From Rufibacter hautae (GTDB lineage Bacteria; Bacteroidota; Bacteroidia; Cytophagales; Hymenobacteraceae), in assembly GCF_008271695.1 (NCBI RefSeq), contig NZ_VKKY01000003.1, positions 930,001 through 994,000 of the forward strand: DNA of 64,000 nucleotides, read 5' to 3'. The first letter of the stretch is position 1. Each line of letters opens with the position of its first letter. Below the pieces are notes generated by a model, which saw only the letters and a list, made by a program, of their open reading frames with translations, was not told where the DNA came from and made no database searches. Of the stretch, positions 6,436-44,999 are shown in pieces. The translations under genes were made by a program, and so were the position numbers.

Positions 6436-6453
6436 TATTTAATGTCCATCATC

Positions 6454-6489: not shown

Positions 6490-6547
6490 CGTTTTGTCTA
6501 AACTACCAACTCCAAAACGTAGGTACAACTAAATTCTACCTATCAGT

Positions 6548-7465: not shown

Positions 7466-7471
7466 TTGGTG

Positions 7472-18600: not shown

Positions 18601-18652
18601 CTAATATACGGTCTTGGGTTTCTTTCTCTGGTTTACCCACATGGTTGCTCAT
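15611..18652 (-). CDS. hsdR: Type I restriction enzyme R subunit
   Basis: A 1013-residue motor and nuclease subunit that translocates and cuts unmodified DNA in complex with HsdM and HsdS. The N-terminal PD-(D/E)XK nuclease shows RPDIVIYVNG followed by LELKRS (about residues 135-155). The helicase has Walker A TQGSGKS near 280, DECHRTQSG as motif II, and the C-terminal helicase lobe with RVNRVD. The C-terminal 350 residues are helical. The length is normal and no frameshift is visible. It overlaps hsdS by 4 bases and the metallopeptidase gene by 11. Confidence 0.95.
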   Translation of the reverse strand: MSNHVGKPEKETQDRILALFQQGLGYTYLGDWEKEERTQPIETGLLFNFLTMQQGYSATLANKAIDIFTKAASDLTNGLYTANKEVYTMLRYGVSAKEEVGKNKDTVWLINWKEPHKNHFAIAEEVTVKGKHNKRPDIVIYVNGIALGVLELKRSKCGVTQGIRQNLDNQKPEFIQRFFTTMQLVLAGNDTQGLRYGTIETPEKYYLSWKEESDKQYDYLLDKHLSVLCAKERLLELIHDFVVFDGGIKKLCRPNQFFGIKAAQQHVHEREGGIIWHTQGSGKSLTMVWLTKWIRENVKDSRVLIITDRDELDDQIQKLFLGVDENIYRTTSGKDLLRVLNEKEPWLICSLVHKFGRQSEEGDINSYIEELKQNLAQDFKAKGDVYVFVDECHRTQSGKLHDAMKAILPDAMFIGFTGTPLLRKDKQRSIEIFGPYIGNPYKFDEAVEDGVVLDLLYEARDVEQFVTDQQSIDEWFDAETKGLTDVAKVELKKKWGTMQKVLGSKSRLERIVYDIVKDFKTKPRLNSGEGNAMLVSGSIYQACKYYELFQSVGFKECAIITSYNPTAADIKGEETGEGSPTDKLLQYEVYQKMLNGKAPDVFEDEVKTKFKKEPAKMKLLIVVDKLLTGFDAPSASYLYIDKSMQDHGLFQAICRVNRVDTEDKDYGYIIDYKDLFKSLKKSIKDYTSGALDDYDSDDVKGLLVDRLEKSREDLDTALEAVKAMCEPVFPKDEPTFIRFFCGNTENRDDLRNTEEKRVALYKATATLMRAYVNIANEMEKAGYTAEQAHKIREDVKYYSDLRDTIKNASGDYLDMKRFEPGMRQLMDMYLSANSSKKISDFENKSLVQLILQVNEDEGEYKKNDKKKQEAMAETIENNMRKAIIEKSDANPKYYEKMSALLDELIKQRKEAVIAYKEYLEKIAKLAGQVEQSSKGSDYPSSLTTNAKRALYDNLDKDEVLALAVDSVIQANKLDDWREHFMKEKKLMLAVKAILKDEEKTKALMEIIKAQNEY

Positions 18653-19956
18653 ACCAGTCTGGTTTTTCCTGTTAACAGTTCCTGCATCATACCCTGCTTA
18701 ATGCTCTGATACTTAGCTTTCTTCTTTTGTAGGTTTTTAATTTCGGCATCCATATCAGATAAGATTGCAGCAATTGACTGTTGCTCCCTTATGTTTTTAG
18801 GAAAAGAAATTTTTATTTTATCCAGCCGCTTTCTTTGGATTCCTTGAGCGGTCGAACCAGTAGCATTTAGCTGTAACTCATTTTGGAAAGCATCGGAAAT
18901 CATATAGTGATAAAGGAAATTATCATCTACTAAATTGTTGGTTTTAATTAACACAACCCTTTGGCTTAAGATATACTTTCTATTATCGGGTATTTGCGCA
19001 ACGTTGCCCAATGGAGCTTCCATTGTTAAAAGAACATCTCCCTTTTTACAAGAGCCTTGTTCCATCCATCTGCCATAAAGAGCTTCACTTCCATAGTAGC
19101 ATTCTTTATTGAAATCAATTCTGCCCATTTGAACATTGTTTGCAGATAAAGCAGGAATTTCACCACCGCCCCAATCCATGTTTAACTTTTTAGGAGTTCT
19201 TCCTCTGTAATCAATATATTTTGATACTACATGAATGAAGTTCTTTTCTTCCCACTCACCCTCAAAACCAGATAACCGATTACCGCCTTGCTTTGGAGAT
19301 ATAAGCAGTTGCTGCATCGCACCTTGTTTGATAGCTTCCTTTTTGGTAATAAGCTTATCTAAGTTGCTGACTAAAGCATCTACATCGGTTAGCGATTTTG
19401 CAATGGCTTTTTGCTCTGCGAGTGTTGGTGGAATTGGAATAAATAAACTGCCATATTCAATGCCGTTTATACCAGGTTGTCCACTTCGCATGGACATAAC
19501 TGCGACCCAATTCCAATATACTTTAGTTTGAAGAAATGCAGCTAAGTATCTTGAATCTATTACAGTAGTATCAGGTGTAATTTTTATAAGGAAGCCTGCA
19601 TACACTAAAATTCCATCTTTTGGATTATAATGGTAGGATTTTCCTACACTTGCCCCTGTTCTTGCAAATACAATTTCACCTTCTTTTAATATATACCTCT
19701 TCCAATCTGGATTATTCACAGATGCTTTGCCAGAATGGATGTACTCTCCTGAATCAGAAATGTCAGTTATTCTAAGATATTGAGGTAGACTTTCGCTGAA
19801 TTCAACTGCTGGTGCATTGATACCATAAGTTGGGCTATCAGCAATCAAGTTTTTTAACCGAACAACTTCCCAGTCTTGCGGTATAACACCGACTTCCGTT
19901 TCTTTGAAGCCATTGTTTACCTTTATTTTAGTTTTTATATCTTCTAATAACTGCAT
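18649..19956 (-). CDS. hsdS: Type I restriction enzyme specificity subunit
   Basis: A 435-residue protein with two target-recognition domains. The first starts near residue 20 (VGVIPQDWEVVRL) and ends with a central conserved helix (PPTLAEQKAIAKSL). The second starts near 230 (FEGEWEEKNF) and ends with a second helix (NIREQQSIAAILSDM). Each half should recognise one half of a bipartite DNA site. It overlaps hsdM by 13 bases and hsdR by 4. The recognition sequence cannot be deduced. Both halves look intact, so the system is probably functional. Confidence 0.95.
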   Translation of the reverse strand: MQLLEDIKTKIKVNNGFKETEVGVIPQDWEVVRLKNLIADSPTYGINAPAVEFSESLPQYLRITDISDSGEYIHSGKASVNNPDWKRYILKEGEIVFARTGASVGKSYHYNPKDGILVYAGFLIKITPDTTVIDSRYLAAFLQTKVYWNWVAVMSMRSGQPGINGIEYGSLFIPIPPTLAEQKAIAKSLTDVDALVSNLDKLITKKEAIKQGAMQQLLISPKQGGNRLSGFEGEWEEKNFIHVVSKYIDYRGRTPKKLNMDWGGGEIPALSANNVQMGRIDFNKECYYGSEALYGRWMEQGSCKKGDVLLTMEAPLGNVAQIPDNRKYILSQRVVLIKTNNLVDDNFLYHYMISDAFQNELQLNATGSTAQGIQRKRLDKIKISFPKNIREQQSIAAILSDMDAEIKNLQKKKAKYQSIKQGMMQELLTGKTRLV

Positions 19957-22760
19957 ACAAATCCCATTTTTTGAAGGTGGGCATTAACATTAGTTGTTAA
20001 TTCAGAAACTATACTGTCTATTTCGCTTAATGTGATGTCATAGCGCTCAGCCAGTTCTTTGATTCTGTTTGTCAGGTTATGAGAGATATCATCAACTTCA
20101 ACTTGTACAGTAGCATGGAGTGTAGCCAGCCACTTATCATCCACCACCAGCACTTTCACTTCATCAGGAGTCAGTTGCTTATACTTTAGTAACACCATTT
20201 CTTCCAGTGTCTTGTATGCATTCTTTATGCTGTTGGCTGCGTGACCCATAGCTTCCAGTTGCCTTATTAAAGTCTGTATCGTTCTTATCTCAGATAAGTA
20301 TTCTCCTTGCTGACCCAGAGAAAGCTTTGTGTAAAGCTCAGAGATAAGATTTTGCCTTTGTGTTTTAGCGACTTTCTTCAAATGCGTTTGTTCAGACACT
20401 TTCGCTAAGTACTTAGTTAAGCAATTAACCTCTACTATCAATGCATTAGGCGTTGATGTTACGGCAACAGTATTGGTGTGAAACAATCCAGTCTGTCCGT
20501 TAGTGTTAGAAGGGGATGCTGCTTGCAGCTTTTGCAATTCAACCAATCTTAATTCTATACCGCCCTTTGCTAACTTGCCTTTGGCATTCAGACACTTGTC
20601 GAAATAACTGGCAGTAGCTTCTCCTTGCTCAAGGTTAGTGAGATTGGTTTCGCATTGCTCCAATGCCGCTATTGTTTCCTGATAGTCAGCATATGAATCT
20701 TTGAAATGGGCAGCGAAAGCCAGGTTCTCATACTCTTCCAGCTTGCTGCCAAGCTCAGCTTTGTTTACCTTGCCGCCTTCAGCATCCTCAAAAATGCCAT
20801 CTTCCCCGCTGTTGTCTTCTACAACCGTATTGAACACGTTTTGCAGGTTTTCCAGTTCGGTTTCCTGTTGCTGAATGGCTTGCCACTCTTCTGCGAAGTA
20901 GCGGTTGACCACCAGCGGTTTCGGCACAAGGTCACTGTCAAGAATAGGGTACTTTTTGCCTGGATTCACCACACGCAGTTTTGCTACCCAGCCTTCTTCC
21001 ACAATCAGGTAGGCATCATCCTTCATGGTATCATTCCAGTAGTTCATAAGATGCTGGTAAATGACATATTTGTTCACCAGAGGCTTGTTGGTATATTCTT
21101 CCAACAGAGATTCCGCCACTTGGTAAATGAGTGCCTTAGGCTTTGTGTTTTCATCTATACCCAACAGTACAGGCTTGTTCTTCTCTACCCATGTATGGAA
21201 CACCGTTTCCATTTCCTGGCTGAAATCCTTGAATTCTGGGTGAGAGAAAATAGTTTCTTTTATCTCCGTTGCATCAATGTTGAGTTGGCTGTAACCATCA
21301 CGCAACGGAGCGTATATCTCAGCCTTCAGCGATGGATACACTTCCCAAAAGCTGTTCAGTGAATCAATGTCTGCATTCGGAATCCCACCGTTCAGGTGCG
21401 CATCCAAGTCATGGATGTCTTCGGCTTCCTGCGTGTCAATATATCGAGGGATGTTCAGGTTGAACTCATTCGCCTGTATCTCGGCAAACGGCACGAAGCG
21501 GGCATATTTTTCAACCGTGGTGTTTTTCTTGAAGGCATCCACGATGTTGTGTACATCCTGCTCACGGAGCCTGTTCTTGTTACCGTCTTTGATAAAGCCT
21601 TTGCTGGCATCAATCATGAAGATTCCTTCACGGGTGTCAGCACCCTCTTTGTCCAACACAATGATACAGGCAGGTATACCCGTGCCGTAAAACATGTTGG
21701 CAGGTAAACCTATGATGCCTTTGATGTACTTGCGCATAATCAGATTCTTACGGATGGTCGCCTCTGCATTGCCCCTGAACAGCACCCCGTGCGGCAGGAT
21801 AACCGCAGCCTTGCCTGTGCTTTTCATAGACGCCACAATGTGCAGCAAAAAAGCATAGTCACCGTTTTTGTCTGGTGGTACACCGTACTCTTTGAAGCGC
21901 TGGAATTCATCATCCATAGGGGAGATGCCGTTGCTCCAACTCTTGGTAGAGAAAGGAGGGTTGGCTACCACATAATCAAAACGTTTGAGCGAGCCATCTT
22001 TCTCTTTGAACTTGGGTGTAGAGATGGTATTTCCTTTCTCAATGGAAGCCTCTGGGTGGTTGTGCAGCCACATGTTCATCACCGCCAACGCTTTGGTGGC
22101 ATTGTCCATTTCTTGACCATATACGCTCAAGCCCTTAGGTGATTCCTGCACTACCTTCAGCAAAAGCGAGCCTGAACCACAAGTTGGGTCATACACTGAG
22201 AAGGAGGGGCTGGTCGCCTTGTCCACCTCAATGATGTTCGCCAACACCCTGGATACTTCGGCAGGAGTGTAGAATTGTCCTTTTGACTTGCCAGACTCAG
22301 TGGCGAAATGGCGCATCAGAAACTCATAGGCATCCCCCAGGATATCATCATCCTCAGCCCTGTTGTTTTTGAAGTTCAGCCCTTCATTTTCGAAAATGGA
22401 TATTAAGGAGGAAAGCTTGTCTACCTTGTCCTTCCCGCTACCCAGCTTATCATCATCATTGAAGTCGGTCAGGTCAATCGTTCCCGTTAACCCGTTCGCC
22501 TCCGCCAGCGGCTTGATGATTTTCTTGTTGATTTTATCACCGATTTCTTTATCACCTTTCAGCTTGACCATGTCCTGGAAGCTGGCACCTTCTGGTATCT
22601 CAATCAGCCCATCGGCTTTCCCTGCGTACTTGTCGGATACATATTTGATGAACAGCAACGTCAGCACGTAGTCTTTGTACTGCGAAGCGTCCATACCACC
22701 CCTAAGCTCGTCACAGCTTTTCCATAAGCTGCTGTACAGCTCTGATTTCTTAATCGCCAT
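19944..22760 (-). CDS. hsdM: Type I restriction enzyme M subunit with long C-terminal extension
   Basis: A 938-residue adenine N6-methyltransferase. An HsdM N-terminal helical domain (about 1-150) is followed by the SAM-binding motif DPTCGSGSLL near residue 190 and the catalytic NPPF near 268. The conserved core ends near 480. Another 450 residues follow, mostly helical and coiled-coil (LEEYENLAF, LEQCETNLTNLEQG), making it nearly twice the usual length of about 500. The extension may brace the complex or contact HsdS. The gene directly follows the XRE regulator (TAATG overlap of one base) and overlaps hsdS. Confidence 0.93.
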   Translation of the reverse strand: MAIKKSELYSSLWKSCDELRGGMDASQYKDYVLTLLFIKYVSDKYAGKADGLIEIPEGASFQDMVKLKGDKEIGDKINKKIIKPLAEANGLTGTIDLTDFNDDDKLGSGKDKVDKLSSLISIFENEGLNFKNNRAEDDDILGDAYEFLMRHFATESGKSKGQFYTPAEVSRVLANIIEVDKATSPSFSVYDPTCGSGSLLLKVVQESPKGLSVYGQEMDNATKALAVMNMWLHNHPEASIEKGNTISTPKFKEKDGSLKRFDYVVANPPFSTKSWSNGISPMDDEFQRFKEYGVPPDKNGDYAFLLHIVASMKSTGKAAVILPHGVLFRGNAEATIRKNLIMRKYIKGIIGLPANMFYGTGIPACIIVLDKEGADTREGIFMIDASKGFIKDGNKNRLREQDVHNIVDAFKKNTTVEKYARFVPFAEIQANEFNLNIPRYIDTQEAEDIHDLDAHLNGGIPNADIDSLNSFWEVYPSLKAEIYAPLRDGYSQLNIDATEIKETIFSHPEFKDFSQEMETVFHTWVEKNKPVLLGIDENTKPKALIYQVAESLLEEYTNKPLVNKYVIYQHLMNYWNDTMKDDAYLIVEEGWVAKLRVVNPGKKYPILDSDLVPKPLVVNRYFAEEWQAIQQQETELENLQNVFNTVVEDNSGEDGIFEDAEGGKVNKAELGSKLEEYENLAFAAHFKDSYADYQETIAALEQCETNLTNLEQGEATASYFDKCLNAKGKLAKGGIELRLVELQKLQAASPSNTNGQTGLFHTNTVAVTSTPNALIVEVNCLTKYLAKVSEQTHLKKVAKTQRQNLISELYTKLSLGQQGEYLSEIRTIQTLIRQLEAMGHAANSIKNAYKTLEEMVLLKYKQLTPDEVKVLVVDDKWLATLHATVQVEVDDISHNLTNRIKELAERYDITLSEIDSIVSELTTNVNAHLQKMGFVCSY

Positions 22761-25149: not shown

Positions 25150-25682
25150 CTTGCCATCCTTTCTTTCCAGATAGCTTTGAAGACCTTTCCTATCTCTTTG
25201 AATTCATCGTAGGTGAAAGTATCAGTTTTTGCATTATTACACCAGTAGCAGCAGAGTACAACGTTCTCAATGTTCTCATAGAGAAGGTCTGGCACCTTAC
25301 GGTCATATTCAAGCCTTCTACCCCTGGTAACAATGCGCTTGGTATTTAGCTTTCCAGAATCGAGCAGTTCCGCTATTTCGTCTTCCGTGATGTCGCAGTA
25401 ATGGCACTTTCTTTCAAGGTTCTGGTACCAAGTGTAAAAATCCTCAAACACAGGAGTGAATTTCTTCCTTGACCATACAGCCCTTATTTTCGCTATCCGC
25501 TCCCTTTCTGGCTTTAGGTCTTCATACCATTGGGAGAGGGTTTGCCTTGATACATTTAGTTCTTTACTGATGTTTCCATATTTCAACCCACAGATTGAAT
25601 AAAGGCGTAAAAAATCTTTTTGTAAATCAGTCACTGAGGTATTTATATTGTGGTAATCCTTGACCTCTAATAATACCTGCAT
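25146..25682 (-). CDS. HNH-type nuclease with N-terminal helix-turn-helix
   Basis: A 178-residue protein. Residues about 20-55 form a helix-turn-helix (YGNISKELNVSRQTLSQWY). The C-terminal half has paired zinc ligands CHYC (about residue 94) and CYWC (about 150) framing the LEYDRK segment, which places the catalytic-type residues as in HNH nucleases. The final NNAKTDTFTYDEF is typical of the same family. The ATG overlaps the stop of the UvrD-like gene (TAATG) and its stop overlaps the deiminase start, so it is the third gene of a tight four-gene operon. It may be an additional DNA-cutting effector. Confidence 0.8.
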   Translation of the reverse strand: MQVLLEVKDYHNINTSVTDLQKDFLRLYSICGLKYGNISKELNVSRQTLSQWYEDLKPERERIAKIRAVWSRKKFTPVFEDFYTWYQNLERKCHYCDITEDEIAELLDSGKLNTKRIVTRGRRLEYDRKVPDLLYENIENVVLCCYWCNNAKTDTFTYDEFKEIGKVFKAIWKERMAR

Positions 25683-27097
25683 TATTTTTTATAGGGGCTA
25701 AGAATGTAGCTGTCACTTAATAAAATAAGCTTCTTACAAGCTCTGGAAAGAGCAACATAAAAGTTTTTATGACACTTGAATTGTTGTGCGTTAAGTATAA
25801 TTACTGTTTCAAATTCTAAGCCCTTTGTTAATAAGGTAGTACCAATGCATCTTCCATAAATTTTCCTGCCAACCCTGCGAATGCTATTTCGCTTGCTTAC
25901 CATTGACTCAAATACAGAGGTGGTGTCTTGTTCGGCAGCAATGAGAGCTTTGCATAAGGTAGAGAATAATTCTTTCCTATAGCATTTCATTCCAGGGAGA
26001 GACTGGATTTCCCTTAGAATTTCAGCTATAAGCTTAAATGAAATCCCATTCCTTAGGGTATTAAACATGTTCATTAATGGAAGAACCCTTGCTTTGTCGG
26101 ATGGTAGAGTCTTTCTTTTTAAACCAGTTGCATTGAACCATAAATTAAGACCTGTGGTGCTGAAGAGTTTGTTGCAAATTTCCATTATCAAAACCATAGA
26201 GCTTTCTTCGGTGATAGCATCTAATCTTTTGGACAACGCATAGAAGTCTTTATGGTCAATTGATTCTATAAGGCGGCAGGTGTTGTTGAAGCTTTTGATA
26301 AACTTCAACCTTGGCTCTATCCTGGCTGATTCTGGGTGAATAACCAGGATACTTTCCTCTGTGGTCAATAGCCTCAATATTTTCGTGTGGTTATTTTTGT
26401 AGAAGTCTTTTGTTATTATAGTCTCTATTGATGCATAATTTCTAAGGTCAATTGAATCCTTTTGTAAAAGCATCCTTCTGATAGTATCTAAATCACTCCC
26501 TAACTTCTCGTTATTACCGTTCTTCCACCTCCATGGCTCAGACAAATCAAACCGATTACCCAAAAAACTTCCCATGATGTCTGCGCTGTTCATATCTACC
26601 AATGACTCTCTCCCAAATTCGAAGATTCCCTGTAGGTAATCGCCAAGGAGTCTCGTGGGTAATACATCTGATAAGCAACTGACAAGGTTATGGTGTTCTA
26701 TTGTGCAGTCTTGGTATTCATCTACAAATAGCCCCGTATAGGTACAGGTAATTACTTTTTTAACAGGCTTTAACCTCAAGAGCCGTGTTGCGTTGCTGAT
26801 AATGTATGGATAGTACCGCTTATCGTCTTGGCTCGGAATCTCGTCCGCTTTACAGAAGGCAAACACATACTTTTGAGCGAAACTTGTTATAGTTTCGATA
26901 CTGTATTTGGCGCTTGAAACATCAGATTTTTTAAGCTTTTCTTTTATGGAGGCAACTCCTGCATGAGTGTGAGTTAAAATCAGTTGTCTGCCTACTGTAT
27001 GTTTAAGAGATTCAGCAATTGTATGAGTCTTACCATAACCCGCAGGTGCTATGAGCATACTCTTTTCCCTGGATGTAAAATCCTTTAGGTCAATCAT
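25682..27097 (-). CDS. GajB-like UvrD/PcrA-type helicase of a Gabija-like system
   Basis: A 471-residue superfamily 1 helicase-like protein: Walker A APAGYGKTHT, motif II FVDEYQDC near residue 120, motif V LLTKGLEFE and motif VI YVALSRA near the C terminus. Size and motif set match GajB (about 490 residues). I choose the ATG at 27,097, which overlaps the preceding gene by 8 bases. An in-frame ATG nine codons earlier (27,124) would overlap more and adds only a short, unconserved tail. In Gabija, GajB assists the GajA nuclease by sensing DNA ends or nucleotide depletion. Confidence 0.82.
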   Translation of the reverse strand: MIDLKDFTSREKSMLIAPAGYGKTHTIAESLKHTVGRQLILTHTHAGVASIKEKLKKSDVSSAKYSIETITSFAQKYVFAFCKADEIPSQDDKRYYPYIISNATRLLRLKPVKKVITCTYTGLFVDEYQDCTIEHHNLVSCLSDVLPTRLLGDYLQGIFEFGRESLVDMNSADIMGSFLGNRFDLSEPWRWKNGNNEKLGSDLDTIRRMLLQKDSIDLRNYASIETIITKDFYKNNHTKILRLLTTEESILVIHPESARIEPRLKFIKSFNNTCRLIESIDHKDFYALSKRLDAITEESSMVLIMEICNKLFSTTGLNLWFNATGLKRKTLPSDKARVLPLMNMFNTLRNGISFKLIAEILREIQSLPGMKCYRKELFSTLCKALIAAEQDTTSVFESMVSKRNSIRRVGRKIYGRCIGTTLLTKGLEFETVIILNAQQFKCHKNFYVALSRACKKLILLSDSYILSPYKK

Positions 27098-28763
27098 TGT
27101 CAATCCAGTTAGACATACCTTCAAGTTGCTGTTTGAGTCTGTTGTCGCCCATATTGATTAATGAATCACAACAGGTAGTACCCAATAATTCACCCAGGCT
27201 AATAGTTTTAAACCATGACTTTTTCTTGGCTGTTTCACCCAATACATGCCTTATATCATTATTTTCGATATCTAACCAATTTGATTCTAATGTACCAAAC
27301 GGTTGGTATCTGGCTTTGACACTATCCATCAACGAACCACCTAAAAGTGTAATTTGATGGTTTACCAATCCCTTTACAGCATCCCAGGGTAGGTCTTTGA
27401 AAATCTGCTGCTCTATACTGAAGTTATCTTCACAGTCTATGATTGTAATGCCCTTTCCCCTTAATTCAGATTTTTTCTGATGAACTTCTTCATCATCGGA
27501 ATCGCAGAAAATTGATACTTGATAGCCTGCTTTTAAGAAACCTTCAGCATATTTAATCTGGTTTGAGCCTTTGCCTGTTGCGAAACGAACGCCTTTGATA
27601 GAAGCATTGTCTTGACCGTTCGATATTCTGTAGGTATTTAATGCTCGTAGGATTCCAACCTCTGTCTCACCTTCGCAAATCAATACCCTTTTGGCAAAAA
27701 AGGCTTCTGGGTTTGCCCTGAGAACTGGTTGCAAGGTTGAGTCAAACTGAAATAGTTTGGTATCATTCTTAGCCATCTTAAATAGGTTTTCGGCACTCAG
27801 TTCTACTAAGACATCTCTTGAATGTGTAGTAATAAATATCTGCCCTTTATTAATATCCCTAAGAGTCTTGGCAAGATGTTGCGCCCTGTCTGGTTCTAAA
27901 CCTTGTTCTATTTCATCAATCAGCATTATGCCTCCTGATTGGCTAAGCTCACTTTGAATGGCTATGGATATCAGCCTTTTTGAACCTTTTCCTTTTAATC
28001 TAATTGGTAAGCCGTCCTGATGTAAACAAACCCTTCCATCCTTGAATGTAAGGTCTCGGCTATCAATTGTGGTTTTGATATCAGTAATTTCAACGCCAAG
28101 CATTGAAGCTGAATTCTCAATCTTCGTAATGATTGGTGATAATTGGGTGAATGGGCTATCGTCAATTTTATCTTTTGCCTCTCTTAAAGCCTCAATGATA
28201 GCTTCATTCCCCTGTATTGACTTACCACTTTCTTTCTTAAGTAAGGAATGTAAAGGGCTTCCCTGGTTCCAGGAAAAGTGCCTGTCAATAAAATCAGACA
28301 CCATGAACATCTCTAAGCAGGCTCTATCACTTGCCTTTATCTCCAAAGGTTCCTGCCTGCCATTTACCACGCACCACTTTGGCTCTAAATCCTTTTCGAC
28401 CGTCAGCCTAATAGTTAAGCACTCTCTCTGTGAGTCTTCAATATTGTCATGGATTTGATTTGTGCTTTCATCAATTACTCTTACATATAACCCATATTTG
28501 TCCTCCTGTAAAAGTCTTGGTGGAAGGTCATAAACAGTTACTTCAATCTCTATACTTGTCTCCACATTGCATCCATGGAAATCTGAATCATAGAATTGTA
28601 GATTCCAACTTCCGCATAGGACGTAGGAAATGGCTTCCAATATTGTTGATTTGCCAGAATCGCCTCTTCCAATGATGCAGATAAATTCTGAAAAGCCGAA
28701 AACTTGTTCAAAATTGGCGATGCCTCTAAAATTTGTGATTTTGAGAGTATGTATTTTTGCCAT
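27090..28763 (-). CDS. GajA-like OLD-family ATPase-TOPRIM nuclease of a Gabija-like system
   Basis: A 557-residue protein. It has an SMC/ABC-type ATPase (Walker A GRGDSGKST at residues 32-40, signature-like LKGKGSKRLIS near 250, Walker B MLIDEIEQGLEP near 275, and the H-loop ITTHSRD). A TOPRIM nuclease follows, with LICEGETE (catalytic Glu, about 365) and FCDSDDEE (DxD, about 410). This is the class 2 OLD arrangement, which is defined by a UvrD-like gene next door. Length and order match GajA (about 580 residues). GajA nicks DNA and is held in check by nucleotides. It is the first gene of the operon. Confidence 0.85.
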   Translation of the reverse strand: MAKIHTLKITNFRGIANFEQVFGFSEFICIIGRGDSGKSTILEAISYVLCGSWNLQFYDSDFHGCNVETSIEIEVTVYDLPPRLLQEDKYGLYVRVIDESTNQIHDNIEDSQRECLTIRLTVEKDLEPKWCVVNGRQEPLEIKASDRACLEMFMVSDFIDRHFSWNQGSPLHSLLKKESGKSIQGNEAIIEALREAKDKIDDSPFTQLSPIITKIENSASMLGVEITDIKTTIDSRDLTFKDGRVCLHQDGLPIRLKGKGSKRLISIAIQSELSQSGGIMLIDEIEQGLEPDRAQHLAKTLRDINKGQIFITTHSRDVLVELSAENLFKMAKNDTKLFQFDSTLQPVLRANPEAFFAKRVLICEGETEVGILRALNTYRISNGQDNASIKGVRFATGKGSNQIKYAEGFLKAGYQVSIFCDSDDEEVHQKKSELRGKGITIIDCEDNFSIEQQIFKDLPWDAVKGLVNHQITLLGGSLMDSVKARYQPFGTLESNWLDIENNDIRHVLGETAKKKSWFKTISLGELLGTTCCDSLINMGDNRLKQQLEGMSNWIDND

Positions 28764-32053: not shown

Positions 32054-32140
32054 AACATAAAGGGGTTGAAGAAACTCTATTTAGATTCAGTTGATGTAAA
32101 CACTACATTCCAAGTCTTAAAGCTCAAAGTAAAATTAAAT

Positions 32141-32704
32141 ATGAAAGTTGCCCTATATTTTAGAATCTCAACTCTGAATCAATCCAATGACACCCAAAAG
32201 GCAATTTTGGTTGACTATGCCCAAAGGAACGGGTATGAGTATGACCTATATGAAGAAGTGGAAAGTTCTCGCAAAACCAGGCCAGTGAAGCAACAGCTTC
32301 TGGCTAAGTTGAGGGCAGGTGAGTATTCAGGTGTTTACATCTACAAGCTTGACCGTTGGGCAAGAAGCTCCACAGAACTAATCTTGGAGGTGACGGAGCT
32401 ATATAATAAAGGGGTTGGTTTTGTGTCTTTAAGTGACCAATTAGATTTCTCTTCGGCAACTGGAAAGCTTATGTTTCAAATGCTAAGTTGCTTTGCGGAA
32501 TTTGAGAGAAGCCTTATCTCGGACAGAACAAAAGCTGCACTTCAAAGAAAGAAAGAATTGGGGGTTCAGCTTGGACGGAGGCCAGGTTCAAAGGATACCA
32601 AGAAGAGAGAGACCAAAAATTACAAATTGCGTGAGATGCGCAAGCGTAAAGCCATTGATGAATCAAAAGGTATCTTTAAGCCTTTAGAAGAATACATTTT
32701 ATGA
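32141..32704 (+). CDS. Serine recombinase (resolvase/invertase family)
   Basis: A 187-residue protein with the catalytic domain of the small serine recombinases: YFRIST with the nucleophile serine near residue 10, then the KLDRWARSS segment, the dimer-region GKLMFQMLSCFAEFER, and a short basic C-terminal DNA-binding tail (LGRRPGSKD). I choose the ATG at 32,141. An earlier in-frame TTG (32,066) would add 25 residues ahead of the conserved start. It probably resolves or inverts DNA at a nearby site. A candidate is the inverted repeat just upstream. Confidence 0.88.
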   Translation: MKVALYFRISTLNQSNDTQKAILVDYAQRNGYEYDLYEEVESSRKTRPVKQQLLAKLRAGEYSGVYIYKLDRWARSSTELILEVTELYNKGVGFVSLSDQLDFSSATGKLMFQMLSCFAEFERSLISDRTKAALQRKKELGVQLGRRPGSKDTKKRETKNYKLREMRKRKAIDESKGIFKPLEEYIL

Positions 32705-35313: not shown

Positions 35314-37311
35314 ATGAGTGGTTTATTTCTGAACTTTTACCAAGTAGAGGTTCCATTAAAAACAATACCTATAAACTTTGTTAAGTACAGTTCATATTCC
35401 ACCAGAGAAGAGTTCCAAGCTTTAAAAGCTGTATACCCTAATTGTATCTTCTACCGTGAGGATGATAGGATTCTAATTTGGTCAATCAATGGTACTGCTG
35501 ACTACCCTAAAGGTTGTCAGCAGGCAATGATAGATTTGGAGCAAAAGCCAAAGGTGCTTTCCAAGATTTTAGAGACCTCTATATTAGGGTATCTTAATAG
35601 TATCAACAAATATAAAGTATCAAAAAACAGACACACAAGCACCTGGGAAATACTATCACCGAAAGATATTTTGGGTGGCACCATACAAGGACTGACAGTA
35701 AAGCGGATAGTCCATTTCTCGCCATGTTATTTTAGAAAGGATAATAAACTCTTAATAGGTTTTTCTCTGTCTACTTCCCTGAAGAATTCATTTACATGGA
35801 GTAAATCTGATTTCGAGAATCATGGTATTGATGTGCTGGGTCTGAAAGGTGATGATGAAAGAATTTTTGCCAACAAGCAGTCTATTAAAAGATTCTTAGA
35901 GGCGAGAGGTGCTGAAGCCAATTATGATGTGGCTTTAAAATCTGAAAATGATAATTCCACTTCTTTTGCTTTAATAGATAAGTTTTACAACTGGATTTCA
36001 AAGAACAAGGCTAACATTACCCTACCGTTCGACCTGGATATAAACTCAGTTAACAAGCGATTTCTGCCGTTCGAAAACGAGCTGATTAAATCTGAAATTA
36101 TAGCAAAGCCCCAAAGGTACTTTTATAGTAATAGAAGAAATACACAAGGTCTTACATACTATGACCAAATGGTAAAGGCTTACCAACCCTTCTCTTTAGA
36201 GCTTTTTCAAAACAGAAACCTAAGTCTTGGCTTAATCTGCCCACTGGAATACCAGGGTGAAACTGAGGGTTTCGCTAAAAAGATAGAGTTGAAATTAAAA
36301 GAAATATTCCACTTCAAATCAATAAGCTTTGTCTTCAAGACTATCAATGGGAAGGATGTTGAAAGCTACAAGGACGTCTTATACGACTCAGATTTATTGA
36401 AATGTGACTTAGTGTATGTTATTGTTAACCAAGCCCAAGAGAAGCTGCTTCCGAATATCTCCCCTTATTACGTCTGCAAGGCAAAGCTCATAGGGAATGG
36501 TATACCAACACAAGACATCCAGATAGAAACAATAAGACAAAATCTTTCAGGCTTCACCCTTACGAACATCTCTTTGAATTCTTATGCCAAATTAGGTGGT
36601 ACGGCATGGACAATCGAAAAAGAAGACAAGCTAAAGGACGAATTAGTAGTAGGCATTGGTTCAACTGTTTCTGAGAACGGTCAATTTGTACTTGGTATCG
36701 CACAAATATTTCACAACGATGGCAGGTATATGACAGGTGATTGTTCACCCCTTTCATCATTCGAGAATTATGCAGAGAACTTAGAGCATCACCTTTACAA
36801 AGTACTTCTTCCATTGATTGACCAAATGAATGGGTCAGGCAGATTCCGACTAATATTCCATTTGTTTAAATCTGCAAGTGAGCAGTATGAAATCAAGGCT
36901 ATTAGCAACCTTAAAGAAAGGCTGTCTGGATATAACTTTGAGTTTGCATTAGTACATCTTGCATATGGCCACAACTTTAGACTCTATTACAATGATGGGA
37001 GGAATGCAATAAGCACTGGAACCTATATTCAGTTATCTAAATTATCCGCTCTTCTTCATTTTTTTAATAAAAGTGATTTACCTCTTAAAATAGAATTGGA
37101 TAGCCGTTCAACATTCACAAGTTTGTTCTACCTCTCCAAACAGGTTTTTTGGTTCTCGCACCTTTCCCACAGAAGTTATATGCCATCCAAAAGAACAGTT
37201 ACTATCATGTACCCATCGCTAATGGCCAGAATGACGGAGGAATTGAAAAAGGTTGATGGTTGGGATTATGACAGACTAAAAGCGGTAAGCGATAAGTTGT
37301 GGTTTATCTAA
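35314..37311 (+). CDS. Prokaryotic Argonaute, long type with inactive PIWI domain
   Basis: A 665-residue protein. The C-terminal half has the MID-PIWI pattern of Argonautes: YYVCKAK (Y386, K389) and PTQ (Q400), then NSYAKLGGTAW with K426, which form the pocket for the 5' end of a guide. The PIWI domain starts with VVGIG, where G449 sits in place of the first catalytic aspartate. I cannot find the remaining D/E/D/H set, so slicing is probably lost. About 280 residues precede MID, so it is not a short pAgo. It is closest to inactive long-B pAgos, which use guides to find invader nucleic acid and switch on an associated effector. The next gene, overlapping by 13 bases, supplies a nuclease. Confidence 0.85.
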   Translation: MSGLFLNFYQVEVPLKTIPINFVKYSSYSTREEFQALKAVYPNCIFYREDDRILIWSINGTADYPKGCQQAMIDLEQKPKVLSKILETSILGYLNSINKYKVSKNRHTSTWEILSPKDILGGTIQGLTVKRIVHFSPCYFRKDNKLLIGFSLSTSLKNSFTWSKSDFENHGIDVLGLKGDDERIFANKQSIKRFLEARGAEANYDVALKSENDNSTSFALIDKFYNWISKNKANITLPFDLDINSVNKRFLPFENELIKSEIIAKPQRYFYSNRRNTQGLTYYDQMVKAYQPFSLELFQNRNLSLGLICPLEYQGETEGFAKKIELKLKEIFHFKSISFVFKTINGKDVESYKDVLYDSDLLKCDLVYVIVNQAQEKLLPNISPYYVCKAKLIGNGIPTQDIQIETIRQNLSGFTLTNISLNSYAKLGGTAWTIEKEDKLKDELVVGIGSTVSENGQFVLGIAQIFHNDGRYMTGDCSPLSSFENYAENLEHHLYKVLLPLIDQMNGSGRFRLIFHLFKSASEQYEIKAISNLKERLSGYNFEFALVHLAYGHNFRLYYNDGRNAISTGTYIQLSKLSALLHFFNKSDLPLKIELDSRSTFTSLFYLSKQVFWFSHLSHRSYMPSKRTVTIMYPSLMARMTEELKKVDGWDYDRLKAVSDKLWFI

Positions 37312-38336
37312 AGGAGGTCATTAGGCATAATAGAGATAGCATACTTAATCAAAAAACTATTGAGTCAGTCGCATACCTGTCTCTAACAGAACCAGTGGAA
37401 TTGGACAACCATGATTTTGACCTATCTCCTGAAGAGGAAGTATCACTGAGTGGTTATAAGGGTAAGACAGTGGATGCGGATATAGTCAAGGCGATTATGG
37501 GGAAACGAGCATTGAAGGGTATTGACGCGACCTCAAATATTTATAAGTTTTCTGGTCTTTATCTCGCTTCTAAAGTAAATTTAAAAGAACACCTTAAGAA
37601 TAAATACCAGATAAGTGATTTGCTTCAGAAGTACTTTCTCACAAAGGTTGAACCTGCCCTTCTTGACATTCTAAGGGGTGAGCTTGACAAGCACAGTGAT
37701 GATATTGCCCTATGCTCTATTAAACGTGTTCTGGATTGTGGAAACGTTTTGGAGGCTGAACTTGATGCGTCTATTGATGGGCTGACCAACAATGGATATG
37801 ATGTCAAAACACAGATTCTACTTGAAGATTTGGAGAAGACGCTACTCAGAGTTAAGTATGTAAACAAAAGCTCAGATGACATTGTGCGGGATGTTCTATA
37901 CAACTTCAGCAATGCAATTCAAAAGATTATCAAAGACAGAAGAAAGGGACATGCTGCATTCAATATAATGGACGAGTATGATGTCCAAGACATATTGTAT
38001 GTTATTCTGAAATCAATATTCCCTAACCTACGGGATGAAGACCCAATACCCAAGGTTGGTGCAAAGTCAACTAAAATTGACCTTATTCTAAGGGAAGAGC
38101 GGATTTTGATAGAGGTTAAAATGATTAAACAAGGTGATTCTAACGAAACCCATTTTATTGAGCAGCTAAAGGTTGATTTTGAGTCTTACCATGAGTGCAA
38201 ATGGCTTGACAAGTTGTTCTGCTTCGTCTATGACCCTTACAAAAAGACAAAAGACATCTCCAATTTTAACGACTTGAACGGAAGCAGAGTAAAAGGTGAC
38301 CACGGCTATAATGTAGAAGTTATAGTCAGAAACTGA
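37299..38336 (+). CDS. PD-(D/E)XK nuclease, probable effector of the Argonaute
   Basis: A 345-residue protein. The first 230 residues are helical and unrecognised (probably the contact with Argonaute). The C-terminal third is a PD-(D/E)XK nuclease with D261 in KIDLIL, then E272-V-K274 in ILIEVK, followed by a helix with a conserved-looking glutamine (FIEQLKVDF). The GTG start at 37,299 lies inside the last 13 bases of the Argonaute gene, so the two are coupled. Nucleases encoded beside inactive long-B pAgos degrade cell DNA after activation (abortive infection). That role is inferred from the gene pair. Confidence 0.8.
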   Translation: MVYLKEVIRHNRDSILNQKTIESVAYLSLTEPVELDNHDFDLSPEEEVSLSGYKGKTVDADIVKAIMGKRALKGIDATSNIYKFSGLYLASKVNLKEHLKNKYQISDLLQKYFLTKVEPALLDILRGELDKHSDDIALCSIKRVLDCGNVLEAELDASIDGLTNNGYDVKTQILLEDLEKTLLRVKYVNKSSDDIVRDVLYNFSNAIQKIIKDRRKGHAAFNIMDEYDVQDILYVILKSIFPNLRDEDPIPKVGAKSTKIDLILREERILIEVKMIKQGDSNETHFIEQLKVDFESYHECKWLDKLFCFVYDPYKKTKDISNFNDLNGSRVKGDHGYNVEVIVRN

Positions 38337-38379: not shown

Positions 38380-39015
38380 ATGAGAATTACACTTAATCAA
38401 CTTCAGGATGAATATGAAAGCCTTTTGGACGGTCCGATTCAAAAGGAAGAAGTTTATCATCAGTTTTTTGTTAAATATCCCATATTCCTGCCATTATGGA
38501 GACCATGCAATAATATAGTCTATACAAAATTGAATTTTTCCACTCAGCATCAAGTAGATTTTGCCTTCGCAAGAGAAAATACTCCTGGGCTAACCTGGTG
38601 TTTTATTGAAATAGAGAAGCCTACCCACCGACAATTTACGAAGAGTGGAAATCCTACGAAGGAACTAACCCATGGCTTAAGGCAATTACATGATTGGCAA
38701 GAATGGGTCAATATTAATAGAACACAAATAGAAAATTACTTTCCCTTTCATGATAAACTTAAATCAAGTAGACTGGCTAAACCAGAGTATAAACTTATTA
38801 CAGGTAGAAGAGAGAATGCAGAAGGAAACCCGTTGATTGAAAATTTGGCGCCATCTTTTATTGAAATCATTTCTTTTGATAGATTGAAAGAGAATTTGGA
38901 ATATCCATATATCAATTATAAAGAGCCAATTAAGGTATGTAGTTTTGTTAATGGTAAAAATAAGGTACTATCAAAATTTAAAATTAACTACAGCTATTCA
39001 ATTGAGTTAGGGTGA
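38380..39015 (+). CDS. Shedu-like (DUF4263) nuclease
   Basis: A 211-residue protein matching the DUF4263 nuclease of Shedu SduA: VDFAF (D60), then WCFIEIEKPTHRQF with E77, E79 and K80, then GLRQLHDW with a catalytic-type glutamine. The preceding FFVKYPIFLPLW segment is also typical. Full-length SduA proteins carry an N-terminal sensing domain. This one is almost only the nuclease domain, so it would need another protein for recognition. It starts 43 bases after the Argonaute-associated nuclease gene, on the same strand, and may be a second effector in the same operon. Confidence 0.78.
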   Translation: MRITLNQLQDEYESLLDGPIQKEEVYHQFFVKYPIFLPLWRPCNNIVYTKLNFSTQHQVDFAFARENTPGLTWCFIEIEKPTHRQFTKSGNPTKELTHGLRQLHDWQEWVNINRTQIENYFPFHDKLKSSRLAKPEYKLITGRRENAEGNPLIENLAPSFIEIISFDRLKENLEYPYINYKEPIKVCSFVNGKNKVLSKFKINYSYSIELG

Positions 39016-39059: not shown

Positions 39060-40578
39060 ATGTTTGGAAAAGTATTGTCAATTGTTCCTTATGTACCAAT
39101 TGAAAGTAAAACATATTATGGTGAGACAAGGGTAAATGTTGTTGATTCAAATTTTAAAAGAATAGTTTTCGATGGTGGTAAAACTACATATTATTTTTTT
39201 TGATTCTAGTTTTGAAGATTTGATTATTGAAAATCAGGAAAATATTGAGTTTGAAGAGGTGAGTTTTCATTTTTTTGGATGTGTTATTAATGAAATAAAC
39301 ATAAGTAGAATACAATCTAAAAATATAAGTATTCATTTTGCAAGCTCTATTTTATCAGGAAAAATTAACGCAAATCATTTGAAAGGTGTTTCATTTAATA
39401 ATTGTTTGTTAAAGGATTCAATATTTCTTATAAATCAAAATAACATTGATATCTCCTATACTGAAGAAAATATATTCCCACTTGTATGGAAAAAAGTACT
39501 TAGGAAATTAAGAGTTAAGAGCTTTTTAGAAGCAGTTCCTGAAAGTCAAAGATATTATATTGATAGTGCAAAGAAAATAAGTTATAGAACTAATGAAGTT
39601 AAGAGGGATAAGGATGGTGTTTATTATGATAAGTATCAAAGAAACTCTTATTATAAAATTGGATACTATTTAAATCCTGATGAAAGAGAATTGCTTAATA
39701 TCAGTCTATCCATTGATTATACCCAAGAAAATGAAGATGTATTAACAAAAATTAATAATTCATATTTAAACTCATTATCCTTTTCAGGCTATTCAGGTGG
39801 TAAAGTATATGTTGAAAACTGTAAGGTTGAAAATTTGTATATAAGAGAATATTCTTCTAAAGGAGAAACTACCTTTTTTAATGTAGGCCCATTAGGATTG
39901 GTAGAGAAGGAGAATAAAATTGAAATTTATAAATCAAACTTAGATAATACATGGTTTGACGATATTGATTTTACTAAATTCAAGATTGTTTCATTTTATA
40001 GAACTAAGTTTGGTAAGGCTGTCTTCACTTCATGTGCCTTTCCAAATGATTATACAAGCTTTGATAAATTTAAGAGTTTAGAAAATGTACATTACCCTGA
40101 TAAAAAATCTGATAGCTATTATAAAAATCAATATGAAATATTTTTACAGTTAAAAAGTATGCTTGAATCAACAGGTAATTTTTATGAATCTCAAAAGATG
40201 CAGGCTATCTCTAACGAAGCCCTTAAGCAAATTAAACATATATCTTCTTGGGATAAATTGATACTTTGGATTAATGGTAAATCAAATAATCATGGTTTGT
40301 CAATTAAACTTCCATTAATGTATTTTTTTTCTTTTTCAATTATCCTTTATATAATTTACTTAATGAGTTTAGGGAGAATGTTTAATAAAAATGATGTTGA
40401 TTTAAATTTGGTTGGTTATTATTTTTCATTTATAGATATAACACATCGGGTAGATTTTCTTGCAAATAAAGAGGAATTTAATCCAATTTCTTTATGTGTT
40501 GACTTTTTTAATAAAATTATTTCTGGCTTTTTTATTTTCCAGTTTGTATCTGCATTCAGGAAATATGGAAAAAAGTAG
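39060..40578 (+). pseudogene. Pentapeptide-like membrane protein, reading frame broken at a T8 tract
   Basis: An open frame from ATG 39,060 encodes 46 residues ending KTTYYFF and stops at a TGA within the tract of eight T's (39,194-39,201). One frame over, 39,172-40,578 encodes 468 residues starting within the same region (FFDSSFEDLIIEN). With seven T's the two join into one protein of about 505 residues. The joined protein has an N-terminal repetitive region resembling pentapeptide/right-handed helix repeats (NCLLKDSIF), a middle part with YIREYSS and FTSCAF repeats, and two membrane helices near the C terminus (PLMYFFSFSIILYIIYLM; IISGFFIFQFVSAF). It could be a real break, a phase-variable switch or a sequencing error. 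It is a possible membrane effector. Confidence 0.6.
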
Positions 40579-40762: not shown

Positions 40763-41389
40763 ATGGGTAGGGATGGAGCAAAAGACTTTACAAGTCCATT
40801 GTGCAGAGCAGATGCAACACTTAAATCTGGGCAGGAGAAGCTGACTTTTAATGGTCAGGAGCAAAACTTTTCTCTACTTGATTTTTGGAAATGGAGCGTC
40901 TCCGACATATTAAGCAATGCCACAAGAGGGCGATTGGCAGAGTTTATCGTAGCTACCGCAACAAGCATTGATATTAGGCAGGTAAGGAATGAATGGGGTG
41001 CCTATGATTTGGAAACACCCAACGGAGTTAAGATAGAGGTCAAGTCAGCAGCTTACCTACAGTCATGGGAACAGAATAGGCTCTCTACAATTTCATTCAG
41101 CACAAAGCTCTCCATGCCTTGGGATTGGGAGATAGACAAGCGTTCTACAGTTGCTGTTCGCAGTGCGGATGTCTACGTCTTCTGCCTACTTCATCATGAA
41201 GACAAACGGACAGTAGACCCGCTGAATATGAATCATTGGGAGTTCTATGTACTGGCTACTGAAGAACTTAACAACTACAAAAGAAGCCAGCACTCAATCA
41301 CCTTGAACTCTTTGAAAAAGCTAACTAATGCAGTTCTGTACAATGAGCTTGACCAGGAAATTAAGGAAAAAGATAAGTTGAATCTATAG
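40763..41389 (+). CDS. PD-(D/E)XK-like nuclease, restriction-enzyme-like
   Basis: A 208-residue protein. The core has RGRLAEFIVATA (a helix with E), then AYDLETPNGVKIEVKSAAYLQSW, which fits the D-x(n)-E-x-K arrangement of PD-(D/E)XK nucleases. The composition is like that of the Argonaute block rather than of the A+T-rich genes on either side. No methyltransferase lies nearby, so it is not a simple type II system. It may be a stand-alone nuclease of a defence system shared with the following small gene, 13 bases downstream. Confidence 0.55.
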   Translation: MGRDGAKDFTSPLCRADATLKSGQEKLTFNGQEQNFSLLDFWKWSVSDILSNATRGRLAEFIVATATSIDIRQVRNEWGAYDLETPNGVKIEVKSAAYLQSWEQNRLSTISFSTKLSMPWDWEIDKRSTVAVRSADVYVFCLLHHEDKRTVDPLNMNHWEFYVLATEELNNYKRSQHSITLNSLKKLTNAVLYNELDQEIKEKDKLNL

Positions 41390-42948: not shown

Positions 42949-43509
42949 ATGAATATGCCTAAATTGAGATACCAGTATTCAAAATTTATCCTTTTGCTAT
43001 TGATGGTTATAGGCTGTACGCCCTCTTACTCACAGAAATTCGAAAGTGATACTTACTCTAAAGAAGAGCTAATCAAACTCAACCAAACGTACATTAAAGT
43101 ATTAAGGGAGCATCGGAGCAAGGCTGCTGGTATGGAAGTAGTAGTTAAGTTTGATACTGCGACTATGTACACCGCACATGCTTTTGCTTATAAGTTAAAA
43201 GCAGAAGGTAGGATTGGTCACCCGCCTTCTAACATAATAAACAAATACGGGGTGGCTGAAATTTGCCAAGGATTGAGTGCGGACGCACTTAAGTATTACC
43301 GAGACAGAAACTACGAAGCCCTTGCACGGTACGTCTACATGGTTTTCTCCTTTTCTCCAGGACACGCCAAGATTCAGCGCAGTTCAAAATATCTTTATAT
43401 TGGTGTTGGATGTAACAACCATGCTTTCGTAGCAAGGCTTAGAGATAGTCCAATGCCCAAGGAGCTTGCGGAGAGCGAAAAGCAAAAGCTTTCTATGCAT
43501 AACTTTTAA
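42949..43509 (+). CDS. CAP-domain (SCP/PR-1-like) lipoprotein
   Basis: A 186-residue protein with a lipoprotein-type leader (FILLLLMVIGC, cysteine near residue 24). A compact CAP-like domain follows: a helix with THAFAYKLKAEGRIGH, a central SFSPGHAKI (the conserved SxGH), and a strand IGVGCNNHAFVA. CAP proteins are secreted or surface proteins of varied function. The stop overlaps the end of the convergent integrase gene by four bases. It may help the element's host at the surface, or simply be cargo. Confidence 0.65.
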   Translation: MNMPKLRYQYSKFILLLLMVIGCTPSYSQKFESDTYSKEELIKLNQTYIKVLREHRSKAAGMEVVVKFDTATMYTAHAFAYKLKAEGRIGHPPSNIINKYGVAEICQGLSADALKYYRDRNYEALARYVYMVFSFSPGHAKIQRSSKYLYIGVGCNNHAFVARLRDSPMPKELAESEKQKLSMHNF

Positions 43510-44999
43510 ATAGATTTCTCTACTTCCTTCATCTCTTTTAACATTCTAATTTGGTTTACTTTTGTGGTTATAACCTTTGCGGTAGTGTTTATATCCTTTC
43601 TTTTGTACCCTTGAAGTACCTCGCTATCCTTGCTACCCAGCATATCTAATATGGTTTGGTCTTCACAGCCTTGAAGTTTCCAATAGTTGATGAATCGTCT
43701 GCGATTACAGTGAGACGAAAATAGGTTGTACTTATAATCTGTAATGGTCTCTTTTTTATCGAATCTCTCCTTAATATGGGAAATAGGTTCTTGATGTAAG
43801 TCGTATTTTTTATAAAATTCTTTCAATAAAGATTTTATGTCTCTATTATATACGGCTTCGACTACGAAATCTAATTTATTAGAGTAGCGACTCAAGATTT
43901 CTTCAATGCGTGTGTCTAATGAAAAAGGTATCACAAACTTACCTTCATTCTTTTCAGTTTCCCCAGTCAATACCTTTTCACTACCCACTTCAGTGATTTT
44001 CCAGGATGATGCATATATGTCTCCGTACCGTAAACCTGTACAGCATTGGAATATAGTTATGTCTATAAGTCTTTTTTTAGACTCTGTTAGTTGACTTCTG
44101 TATTCATTATATAAAAGTTCAATCTCATTATCTTCAAGATAGATTATATCGTCTTTGGGCTTTCTATAAACTGGATAGGTTTCATATACCAGATTTACAT
44201 TTTTGACATTCTTTATCCTTCTACACCAGTTAACAAACTGTTTCAATTTTTTGACTTGCCCTCCAAAGGTATTATTGACAATTTTTGCTTTGCCTTTCAT
44301 CCTGTTGAACATTAAGTAAGTTCCATATCTGCTATAAAAGTCAAAGTCTAACTGTGAAAACAGAAGTGGCGTGTTGGTCTGCTGACTAAATTCTAAAAGA
44401 TTAGAAACCCAAGATTTGTACTGTTTAAAAATTGGTCTGTTCTCATACATCCTTGGAAATTCAATCAGTAGCTTCTTGAATTCTACCTCTTCTTCATCAA
44501 GTTCTATAATAACACCTTCAGCTTTGAACTGCTCCAACTCTCTATTTATGTCGCTGAGTGTCTTTGTCAGAACTTGTTTTTTCTCAATTGCTTCCTCAGC
44601 GCTAAAGATTGAATGAAGTTTTCTTGCCTTTACTTTAGTTTCTTCTCTTTTAACAATAGCTTCCTGCTTAGCCTCTTCCGCTTCTATTTCTTTTAGTCTT
44701 TTAAGATATAAGGCTTTTACTGTTTGAAAGGACTTGTCATTAGATGTTTTAGCCACACTTTCTAAAACTTCGCAATGCGTAAGAATGAGTTTGTTGAGAA
44801 GGTAATAGTTGGACTTGGTTCCCTTCATCAAACCAGAGATGGTGTCAAAGTCATTTTTATCAACTGCTATGACTTTGCCATCAGAGGTTTTTAATGATAT
44901 ATTATTAGGAACTCCACCTATGGTGTACCTAATAGTTAATGGGTATAATCCGCTTTTGTTCTTCTTGGTAGTAAGTGCGCCCTTGATTGTGAAACTCAT
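43506..44999 (-). CDS. int: Tyrosine recombinase (integrase) of the island
   Basis: A 497-residue integrase of the Bacteroidetes type. An N-terminal arm-binding domain (about 1-100) and a long helical insert (SIFSAEEAIEKKQ) precede a core-binding domain (about 160-270). The catalytic domain has the first arginine in TGLRYGD (about 323), the SHCNRRRF box (about 426) and the nucleophile tyrosine in LQGYKR (about 465). Its start lies about 140 bases from a tRNA-3'-end-like sequence, the usual place for such an integrase, so it presumably inserts the island into that tRNA gene. Confidence 0.92.
   Translation of the reverse strand: MSFTIKGALTTKKNKSGLYPLTIRYTIGGVPNNISLKTSDGKVIAVDKNDFDTISGLMKGTKSNYYLLNKLILTHCEVLESVAKTSNDKSFQTVKALYLKRLKEIEAEEAKQEAIVKREETKVKARKLHSIFSAEEAIEKKQVLTKTLSDINRELEQFKAEGVIIELDEEEVEFKKLLIEFPRMYENRPIFKQYKSWVSNLLEFSQQTNTPLLFSQLDFDFYSRYGTYLMFNRMKGKAKIVNNTFGGQVKKLKQFVNWCRRIKNVKNVNLVYETYPVYRKPKDDIIYLEDNEIELLYNEYRSQLTESKKRLIDITIFQCCTGLRYGDIYASSWKITEVGSEKVLTGETEKNEGKFVIPFSLDTRIEEILSRYSNKLDFVVEAVYNRDIKSLLKEFYKKYDLHQEPISHIKERFDKKETITDYKYNLFSSHCNRRRFINYWKLQGCEDQTILDMLGSKDSEVLQGYKRKDINTTAKVITTKVNQIRMLKEMKEVEKSI

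Follow-up and report, generated by a model that had tools for sequence, protein, structure and literature searches.

A diverged BPAN-type pair of a compact, inactive long-B-type Argonaute and a PD-(D/E)XK nuclease in Rufibacter hautae

Introduction

BPAN systems were characterised by Song et al. (2023; PMC10620215) through EcBPAN, which consists of EcAgo and EcbAgaN. According to the passages of that paper used here, EcBPAN is guided by RNA, is targeted to DNA and degrades genomic DNA; EcbAgaN cuts ssDNA, dsDNA, plasmid and genomic DNA, and the system kills the cell. In the same passages, an N-terminal domain of EcbAgaN precedes its nuclease domain, and activity is lost in the mutants D298A and E309A-K311A. 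PDB entry 23wq contains 8 chains each of EcAgo and EcbAgaN. For long-B Argonautes in general, YK is given as the usual motif of MID in the part of PMC6299218 consulted. Reduction of PAZ is described as a known trend among them in the sections seen of a study in Nucleic Acids Res. (2024; PMC10954474), where the PAZ of RsAgo is said to be incomplete, and where an alpha-helical domain is described as common to long-B effectors, ahead of PD-(D/E)XK, HEPN, TIR or TM domains.

Here, we analysed a stretch of 64,000 nucleotides of the Rufibacter hautae genome (contig NZ_VKKY01000003.1, positions 930,001 to 994,000), hereafter the window. A preliminary description made from its sequence had proposed an inactive long Argonaute coupled to a PD-(D/E)XK nuclease, and had suggested that the nuclease may represent an undescribed effector branch. 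The first part of this reading stands, with the Argonaute of long-B type, and the second does not: the pair is a diverged BPAN-type pair, that is, a system of an already known kind, which belongs to a separate and compact branch.

Results

Organisation of the gene pair

Both open reading frames and the stretch of 13 bases that they share were found where the preliminary description had placed them (Table 1). To collect related loci, species genome contigs were scanned for two peptide patterns derived from the aligned Argonautes, a procedure that may pass over relatives lacking both patterns; 21 loci were obtained. These frames are not a product of chance, since all 21 loci keep both genes in the same order. 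The nuclease gene lies immediately downstream of the Argonaute gene in the window and in each of the 21 loci, which is the arrangement of BPAN systems. When the starts were set by alignment of the family N-terminus, the nuclease was found to begin with ATG in 21 of 21 related loci and with GTG only in the window. A public prediction of the window nuclease (P0001) has 311 aa, 34 short of the 345 aa considered here, because the GTG was apparently not used as a start.

Table 1. Features of the gene pair and of its surroundings (positions are those of the window)
Feature	Position	Strand	Basis or remark
Type I restriction-modification genes (REase, specificity, methylase)	15611-22760	-	PADLOC
Gabija GajB/GajA	25682-28763	-	PADLOC
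Serine recombinase-like ORF	32066-32704		by eye
Long-B-type Argonaute gene, 665 aa, catalytically inactive	35314..37311	+	ATG start; Pfam Piwi, PADLOC PDLC02395
N-terminal lobe of the Argonaute (N, L1, L2; PAZ predicted to be reduced or lost), residues 1-250	35314..36063	+	predicted model, inter-domain length
MID pocket for the guide 5' end, Y385-K389-Q400-K426	36466..36591	+	invariant in 55/55 and 20/20 rows
G449, first PIWI catalytic position	36658..36660	+	invariant G; on D of L070 in the alignment
L517-F518-K519-S520, expected site of the third catalytic aspartate	36862..36873	+	aligned with F-R-D-G of L070
Companion nuclease gene, bAgaN-like, 345 aa	37299..38336	+	GTG start; Pfam, PADLOC Aga_Helical-REase, EcbAgaN match
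Overlap of the Argonaute and nuclease genes, 13 bases	37299..37311	+	nuclease start codon across the Trp codon of the final W-F-I of the Argonaute
N-terminal alpha-helical region of the nuclease, residues 1-190, fast-evolving	37299..37868	+	helical in the model; low identity among relatives
PD-(D/E)XK nuclease domain, residues 195-345	37881..38333	+	
Catalytic motif D261...E272-V-K274	38079..38120	+	aligned with EcbAgaN D298, E309, K311
Short Shedu-like SduA, 211 aa, SduA_C domain	38380-39015	+	Pfam, PADLOC; 43 bases after the nuclease
Phage-integrase-like protein	43506-44999		Pfam

The Argonaute keeps the guide pocket and lacks catalytic residues

Residues 381-573 of the Argonaute matched the Pfam family Piwi (E = 1e-11, 45.1 bits, cut-off 28.9), and the PADLOC pAgo model PDLC02395 (version 2.0.0 of 2023, as for PDLC02411 below) fitted residues 1-665 with 978 bits. 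The closest solved relatives by sequence were EcAgo (2.8e-34) and RsAgo (about 2e-29), with AfAgo also among the nearest solved kin. A comparison of the predicted fold, which the preliminary description had proposed as a check, placed RsAgo nearest. RsAgo (5awh, 6d8p) is likewise an inactive long-B Argonaute, although its chains, of 758-791 residues, are longer.

In the single predicted model, residues 11-250 showed block pLDDT values of 81-94 and residues 161-244 contained no strand of 3 residues or more; the model was poor in the last 120 residues (pLDDT <50 at 546-595, 609-636 and 647-665). Positions 160 and 285 of the window Argonaute are separated by 125 residues, and the equivalent distance is 121-126 residues in the compact Argonautes, as compared with 157-183 in the longer long-B Argonautes (11 rows, of which L057 and L102 are near-identical). 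This shortening is in keeping with a reduction of PAZ, and the window Argonaute is predicted to have the reduced PAZ of long-B Argonautes.

The KLGG sequence and the Y-K-Q-K pocket of MID that had been recognised previously proved to be strictly conserved, since Y385, K389, Q400, K426 (at the start of KLGG) and also G449 were invariant in the 55-row family alignment and also across a wider set (20/20 rows). At the sequence level, the canonical YK motif of long-B MID domains, which would hold the guide end, is present. As a reference for the catalytic positions, we used the archaeal Argonaute L070, encoded by a haloarchaeal plasmid, which retains the aspartate and the F-R-D-G motif; it was chosen because 13 other Argonautes of the window's phylum (L013-L024 and L027), considered as active controls, all lack the first aspartate. 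In the MAFFT alignment, G449 coincided with the first aspartate of L070, and EcAgo has the same glycine when aligned with the window Argonaute. The third aspartate of L070 fell on S520 with the two-residue gap introduced by MAFFT, and on F518 in the ungapped alignment; neither residue is acidic, and in 20 of 20 rows position 517 is L and position 518 is F or Y. With G449 at the first position and no acidic residue at the third, these alignments indicate that at least two positions of the PIWI tetrad are lost. Hence the replacement of the first catalytic aspartate by glycine is confirmed, and the intact DEDX tetrad, which the preliminary description had named as evidence against its reading, is absent.

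The window Argonaute belongs to a compact branch

A tree was obtained from the MID-PIWI regions of 27 rows, which included only one long-A-like row and neither EcAgo nor RsAgo. Twelve further Argonautes of compact size (661-689 aa), each accompanied by this nuclease, grouped with that of the window (97/99), and this group was placed next to L053, an Argonaute of 692 aa (92/95, not starred). A second clade (98/98) was formed by longer Argonautes, with effectors that are nucleases according to PADLOC (L056, L057, L060 and L101-L103) or membrane-like or Aga_Unknown proteins (L055, L058, L059 and L104). The window branch appears to fall outside the clade of EcBPAN-like Argonautes, as judged by L101-L103, which have Helical-REase effectors, EcAgo not being a row of the tree. 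Given the long branches and this choice of rows (one long-A-like, none for EcAgo or RsAgo), the deeper order is unsure. Among the titles listed on BPAN, Argonaute and EcAgo, and on long-B pAgo since 2023, none deals with the compact branch.

The effector of L053 (positions 5685-6662 of that locus, 325 aa) has no Pfam or PADLOC match and shows one membrane-like segment by hydropathy; it is possibly a membrane-type effector of the compact branch. The idea that it shares the N-terminus of the compact-branch nucleases, as in an effector swap on one adaptor, found no support: its score of 15.0 lies below the maximum reached in 100 shuffles (18.9; mean, 12.2).

The companion protein has the catalytic domain of BPAN nucleases

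Residues 195-344 of the nuclease matched the Pfam restriction-endonuclease family DpnII-MboI (PF18742; E = 1.4e-32, 112.8 bits, cut-off 27). The PADLOC model PDLC02411 (Aga_Helical-REase) fitted residues 178-322 with 102 bits, and three Aga_Helical-REase models gave 102, 75 and 53 bits over residues 168-323. The sole solved protein matched by sequence was EcbAgaN, with 2.8e-7 in the single-sequence search (E up to 10) and 7.9e-10 in the profile search (E up to 1). D261, E272 and K274, which align with D298, E309 and K311 of EcbAgaN, occur in every row of both family alignments (50/50 and 20/20). The earlier assignment to PD-(D/E)XK nucleases is upheld by the Pfam match, this alignment and the conserved motif; by sequence, the protein is a member of this superfamily with a D-EVK motif, as in BPAN systems. 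Structural matches of the whole nuclease model in Foldseek were weak, none reaching E ≤0.001.

The N-terminal region is less conserved: over residues 1-190, identity to 12 close relatives is 42-47%, whereas over residues 195-345 it is 75-84%. By itself, the N-terminus of the window nuclease (residues 1-187/190) gave no PADLOC match, and only two Pfam matches touch this region, both below the cut-off: Ca_bind_SSO6904 (E = 0.008, residues 44-113) and DUF851 (E = 0.047, residues 167-243). The N-termini of the window branch were compared with 41 canonical bAgaN N-termini, namely that of L057 and those of 40 of 120 relatives among the matches listed, and hhalign returned E = 0.11 (20 rows) and 0.026 (50 rows), with a probability <2%. 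Whole-protein profile comparisons with canonical bAgaN gave E = 7.3e-15 and 2.8e-12; given that the N-termini alone have no credible hhalign match, these values are carried by the catalytic domain.

Two relatives of the window nuclease provide a connection. The nuclease of L044, from a Chloroflexota MAG, can be aligned end to end with that of the window (42% identity, 28% over residues 1-190). The isolated N-termini of L044 (E = 6.1e-8) and L045 (2e-4) match PDLC02411, those of L046-L049 and of the window do not, and the same model also matches the canonical bAgaN N-termini of L057 (4e-15) and L103 (5.2e-43). Another Helical-REase model reaches the N-terminus of the HEPN effector L061 (2.9e-4). 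Because PDLC02411 matches both L044/L045 and canonical bAgaN, the simplest reading is that the N-terminus of the window nuclease is probably a fast-diverging copy of the described alpha-helical domain of long-B effectors, the connection being made through L044 and L045 only.

An overlap of 13 bases recurs among long-B loci

With starts set by alignment of the family N-terminus, the overlap measures exactly 13 bases in the window and in 17 of the 21 related loci (18/22). In L048-L051 the genes are 2-3 bases apart, and in L049 an earlier in-frame start would restore the 13 bases. Wherever the overlap exists, the start codon spans the Trp codon of a conserved C-terminal W-F-I/L. The same overlap was observed, taking the first in-frame start, in 5 of 9 more distant long-B loci, whose effectors are membrane-like (L055, L059), a nuclease (L056), HEPN (L061) or SIR2 (L062); the values for the remaining loci are 4 (L057), 0 (L058) and -9 (L053), and the start in L060 is unreliable. 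As annotated, it is also present in 3 of 8 plasmid loci (L069, which is archaeal, L103 and L104). A simple cause is at hand: whenever the TGG of a C-terminal Trp follows a codon whose last base is A, G or T, a start codon is available. The recurrence of the overlap suggests a rule of translational coupling that would tie a toxic effector to its controller. In the passages of PMC10620215 that contain the word overlap, the term concerns other matters than gene overlap.

Distribution of the pair

The contigs of the 21 loci are labelled as Bacteroidota, Planctomycetota, Chloroflexota and Pseudomonadota, and include many MAGs, whose labels can err. Pairwise distances of the Argonautes and of the nucleases correlated over 20 loci (r = 0.97, a value reached in 0 of 10,000 permutations) and over the 13 closest (r = 0.89). 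With several phyla involved, the two genes seem to travel together, although adjacency alone would be expected to give the same correlation. Among 395 sampled genomes of the window's phylum, PDLC02395 (E up to 0.001) had matches in 25, three of them above 900 bits including the window's own, and PDLC02411 in 6; the broader pAgo_II model PDLC02379 had matches in 27 of 296 genomes. Public sequences yielded 229 matches for the Argonaute and 345 for the nuclease, of which the best 120 of each were listed. The Argonaute found no match in 50,697 phage records, and 9 of 72,556 plasmid records matched, none covering 80% of the query.

At L052 (Chitinophaga rupis, 6001-7892), the search recovered only the last part of the Argonaute, and the ORF of the nuclease continues into an integrase core domain; this pair looks broken by an integrase-type insertion.

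Genomic neighbourhood

The pair sits in a defence island that includes type I restriction-modification, Gabija and Shedu-like genes. SduA was considered as a third member of the system and rejected: of 52 loci only two, both from the window's own genome, matched it, and it was not found in the 21 related loci, whose flanks extended up to 6 kb per side and were in some cases shorter (the contigs of L033 and L051 measure 5-6 kb).

Discussion

EcBPAN resembles the window pair in that an inactive long-B Argonaute is encoded upstream of a PD-(D/E)XK nuclease, with glycine at the first catalytic position and a D...E-V-K motif. It differs in the size of its proteins (EcAgo, 731 versus 665 aa; EcbAgaN, 390 versus 345 aa), and the significant sequence match is restricted to residues 291-664 of the window Argonaute and 220-325 of the nuclease. 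The PADLOC model PDLC02395 fits the Argonaute end to end, and PDLC02411 leaves the N-terminus of the nuclease uncovered. The long-B systems in the sections consulted of PMC10954474 share with the window pair a helical region followed by PD-(D/E)XK, a reduced PAZ and an effector located directly downstream; however, the homology of the helical region with theirs is indirect. The differences from known BPAN systems are thus modest, and consist of a compact Argonaute branch with reduced PAZ that appears to lie outside the EcBPAN-like clade, and of a fast-changing nuclease N-terminus.

Very probably, the pair constitutes a BPAN-type abortive-infection system of the compact branch. By analogy with EcBPAN, the MID pocket would load short 5'-phosphorylated guides, probably RNA, which would pair with ssDNA of an invading plasmid or phage. 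Having lost its PIWI site, the Argonaute would not cut; instead, it would activate the nuclease encoded by the overlapping gene, probably through the helical N-terminus of the latter, and the active nuclease would degrade DNA indiscriminately, so that the cell is killed or arrested. Guide type, target, activation, coupling through the helical domain and cell death all follow the EcBPAN model in this outline, and kinship with EcBPAN favours the guide-triggered killing envisaged in the preliminary description. Since the window branch seems to fall outside the EcBPAN-like clade, guide, trigger and coupling may differ from those of EcBPAN.

The same genes and motifs would also serve a targeted system in which the Argonaute brings the nuclease to DNA matched by the guide, so that plasmid or phage DNA is removed and the host survives, and the presence of EcAgo and EcbAgaN in one solved entry is compatible with such recruitment. 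Nevertheless, this is improbable in view of the passages of PMC10620215 in which EcbAgaN cleaves every kind of DNA listed above, genomic DNA included, and the system kills the cell. A decayed or repurposed pair with no role in defence, for example in regulatory silencing of endogenous elements, would agree with the inactive PIWI and with the broken appearance of the L052 relative; against it stand the two open genes in the window, the nuclease motif, whose residues do not vary over 20 rows, and the other defence genes around the pair, and we consider it very improbable.

The proposal that the nuclease carries a sensor or effector domain of a new type at its N-terminus, and hence that the pair represents an undescribed effector branch, draws on the lack of PADLOC and canonical bAgaN matches for residues 1-187/190, the presence of just two sub-cut-off Pfam matches, the much faster change of this region relative to the catalytic domain and the Foldseek result for the whole model. 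We consider it quite improbable, because the isolated N-termini of L044 and L045 match Aga_Helical-REase, and both the N-terminal domain of EcbAgaN and the shared long-B helical domain appear in the cited parts of PMC10620215 and PMC10954474. The branch that had been called undescribed owing to its unrecognised N-terminus has a catalytic domain that aligns with EcbAgaN, PADLOC models match both of its proteins, and a long-B helical domain is already in print.

A BPAN-type assignment of the pair would extend the recently described suicidal, guide-programmed immunity to a compact branch with many public relatives, and would make a smaller pair of proteins available for DNase tools triggered by a target. 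More speculatively, and on balance doubtful, this could be a second branch of long-B Argonaute-nuclease systems, compact in form, in which PAZ has almost disappeared and the nuclease bears a rapidly evolving helical domain for coupling, and which acquired its PD-(D/E)XK effector separately from the EcBPAN branch; the overlap seen across several branches and effector types, with the start codon placed in the last Trp codon of the Argonaute, would make synthesis of the effector depend on a finished Argonaute.

Other reading frames of the window were also noted. The protein of 468 aa encoded at 39172-40578 matched nothing in PADLOC and nothing convincingly in Pfam (TPD1_C, E = 0.03); it shows hydrophobic stretches near its end by eye and is possibly a membrane protein. 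An ORF of 208 aa at 40763-41389 has a weak match to DUF6998 (19.3 bits, cut-off 27) and none in PADLOC. At 11204-14821, a protein of 1205 aa has helicase-type PADLOC matches (DpdF, 298 bits, over part of the length) and is possibly a defence-linked helicase.
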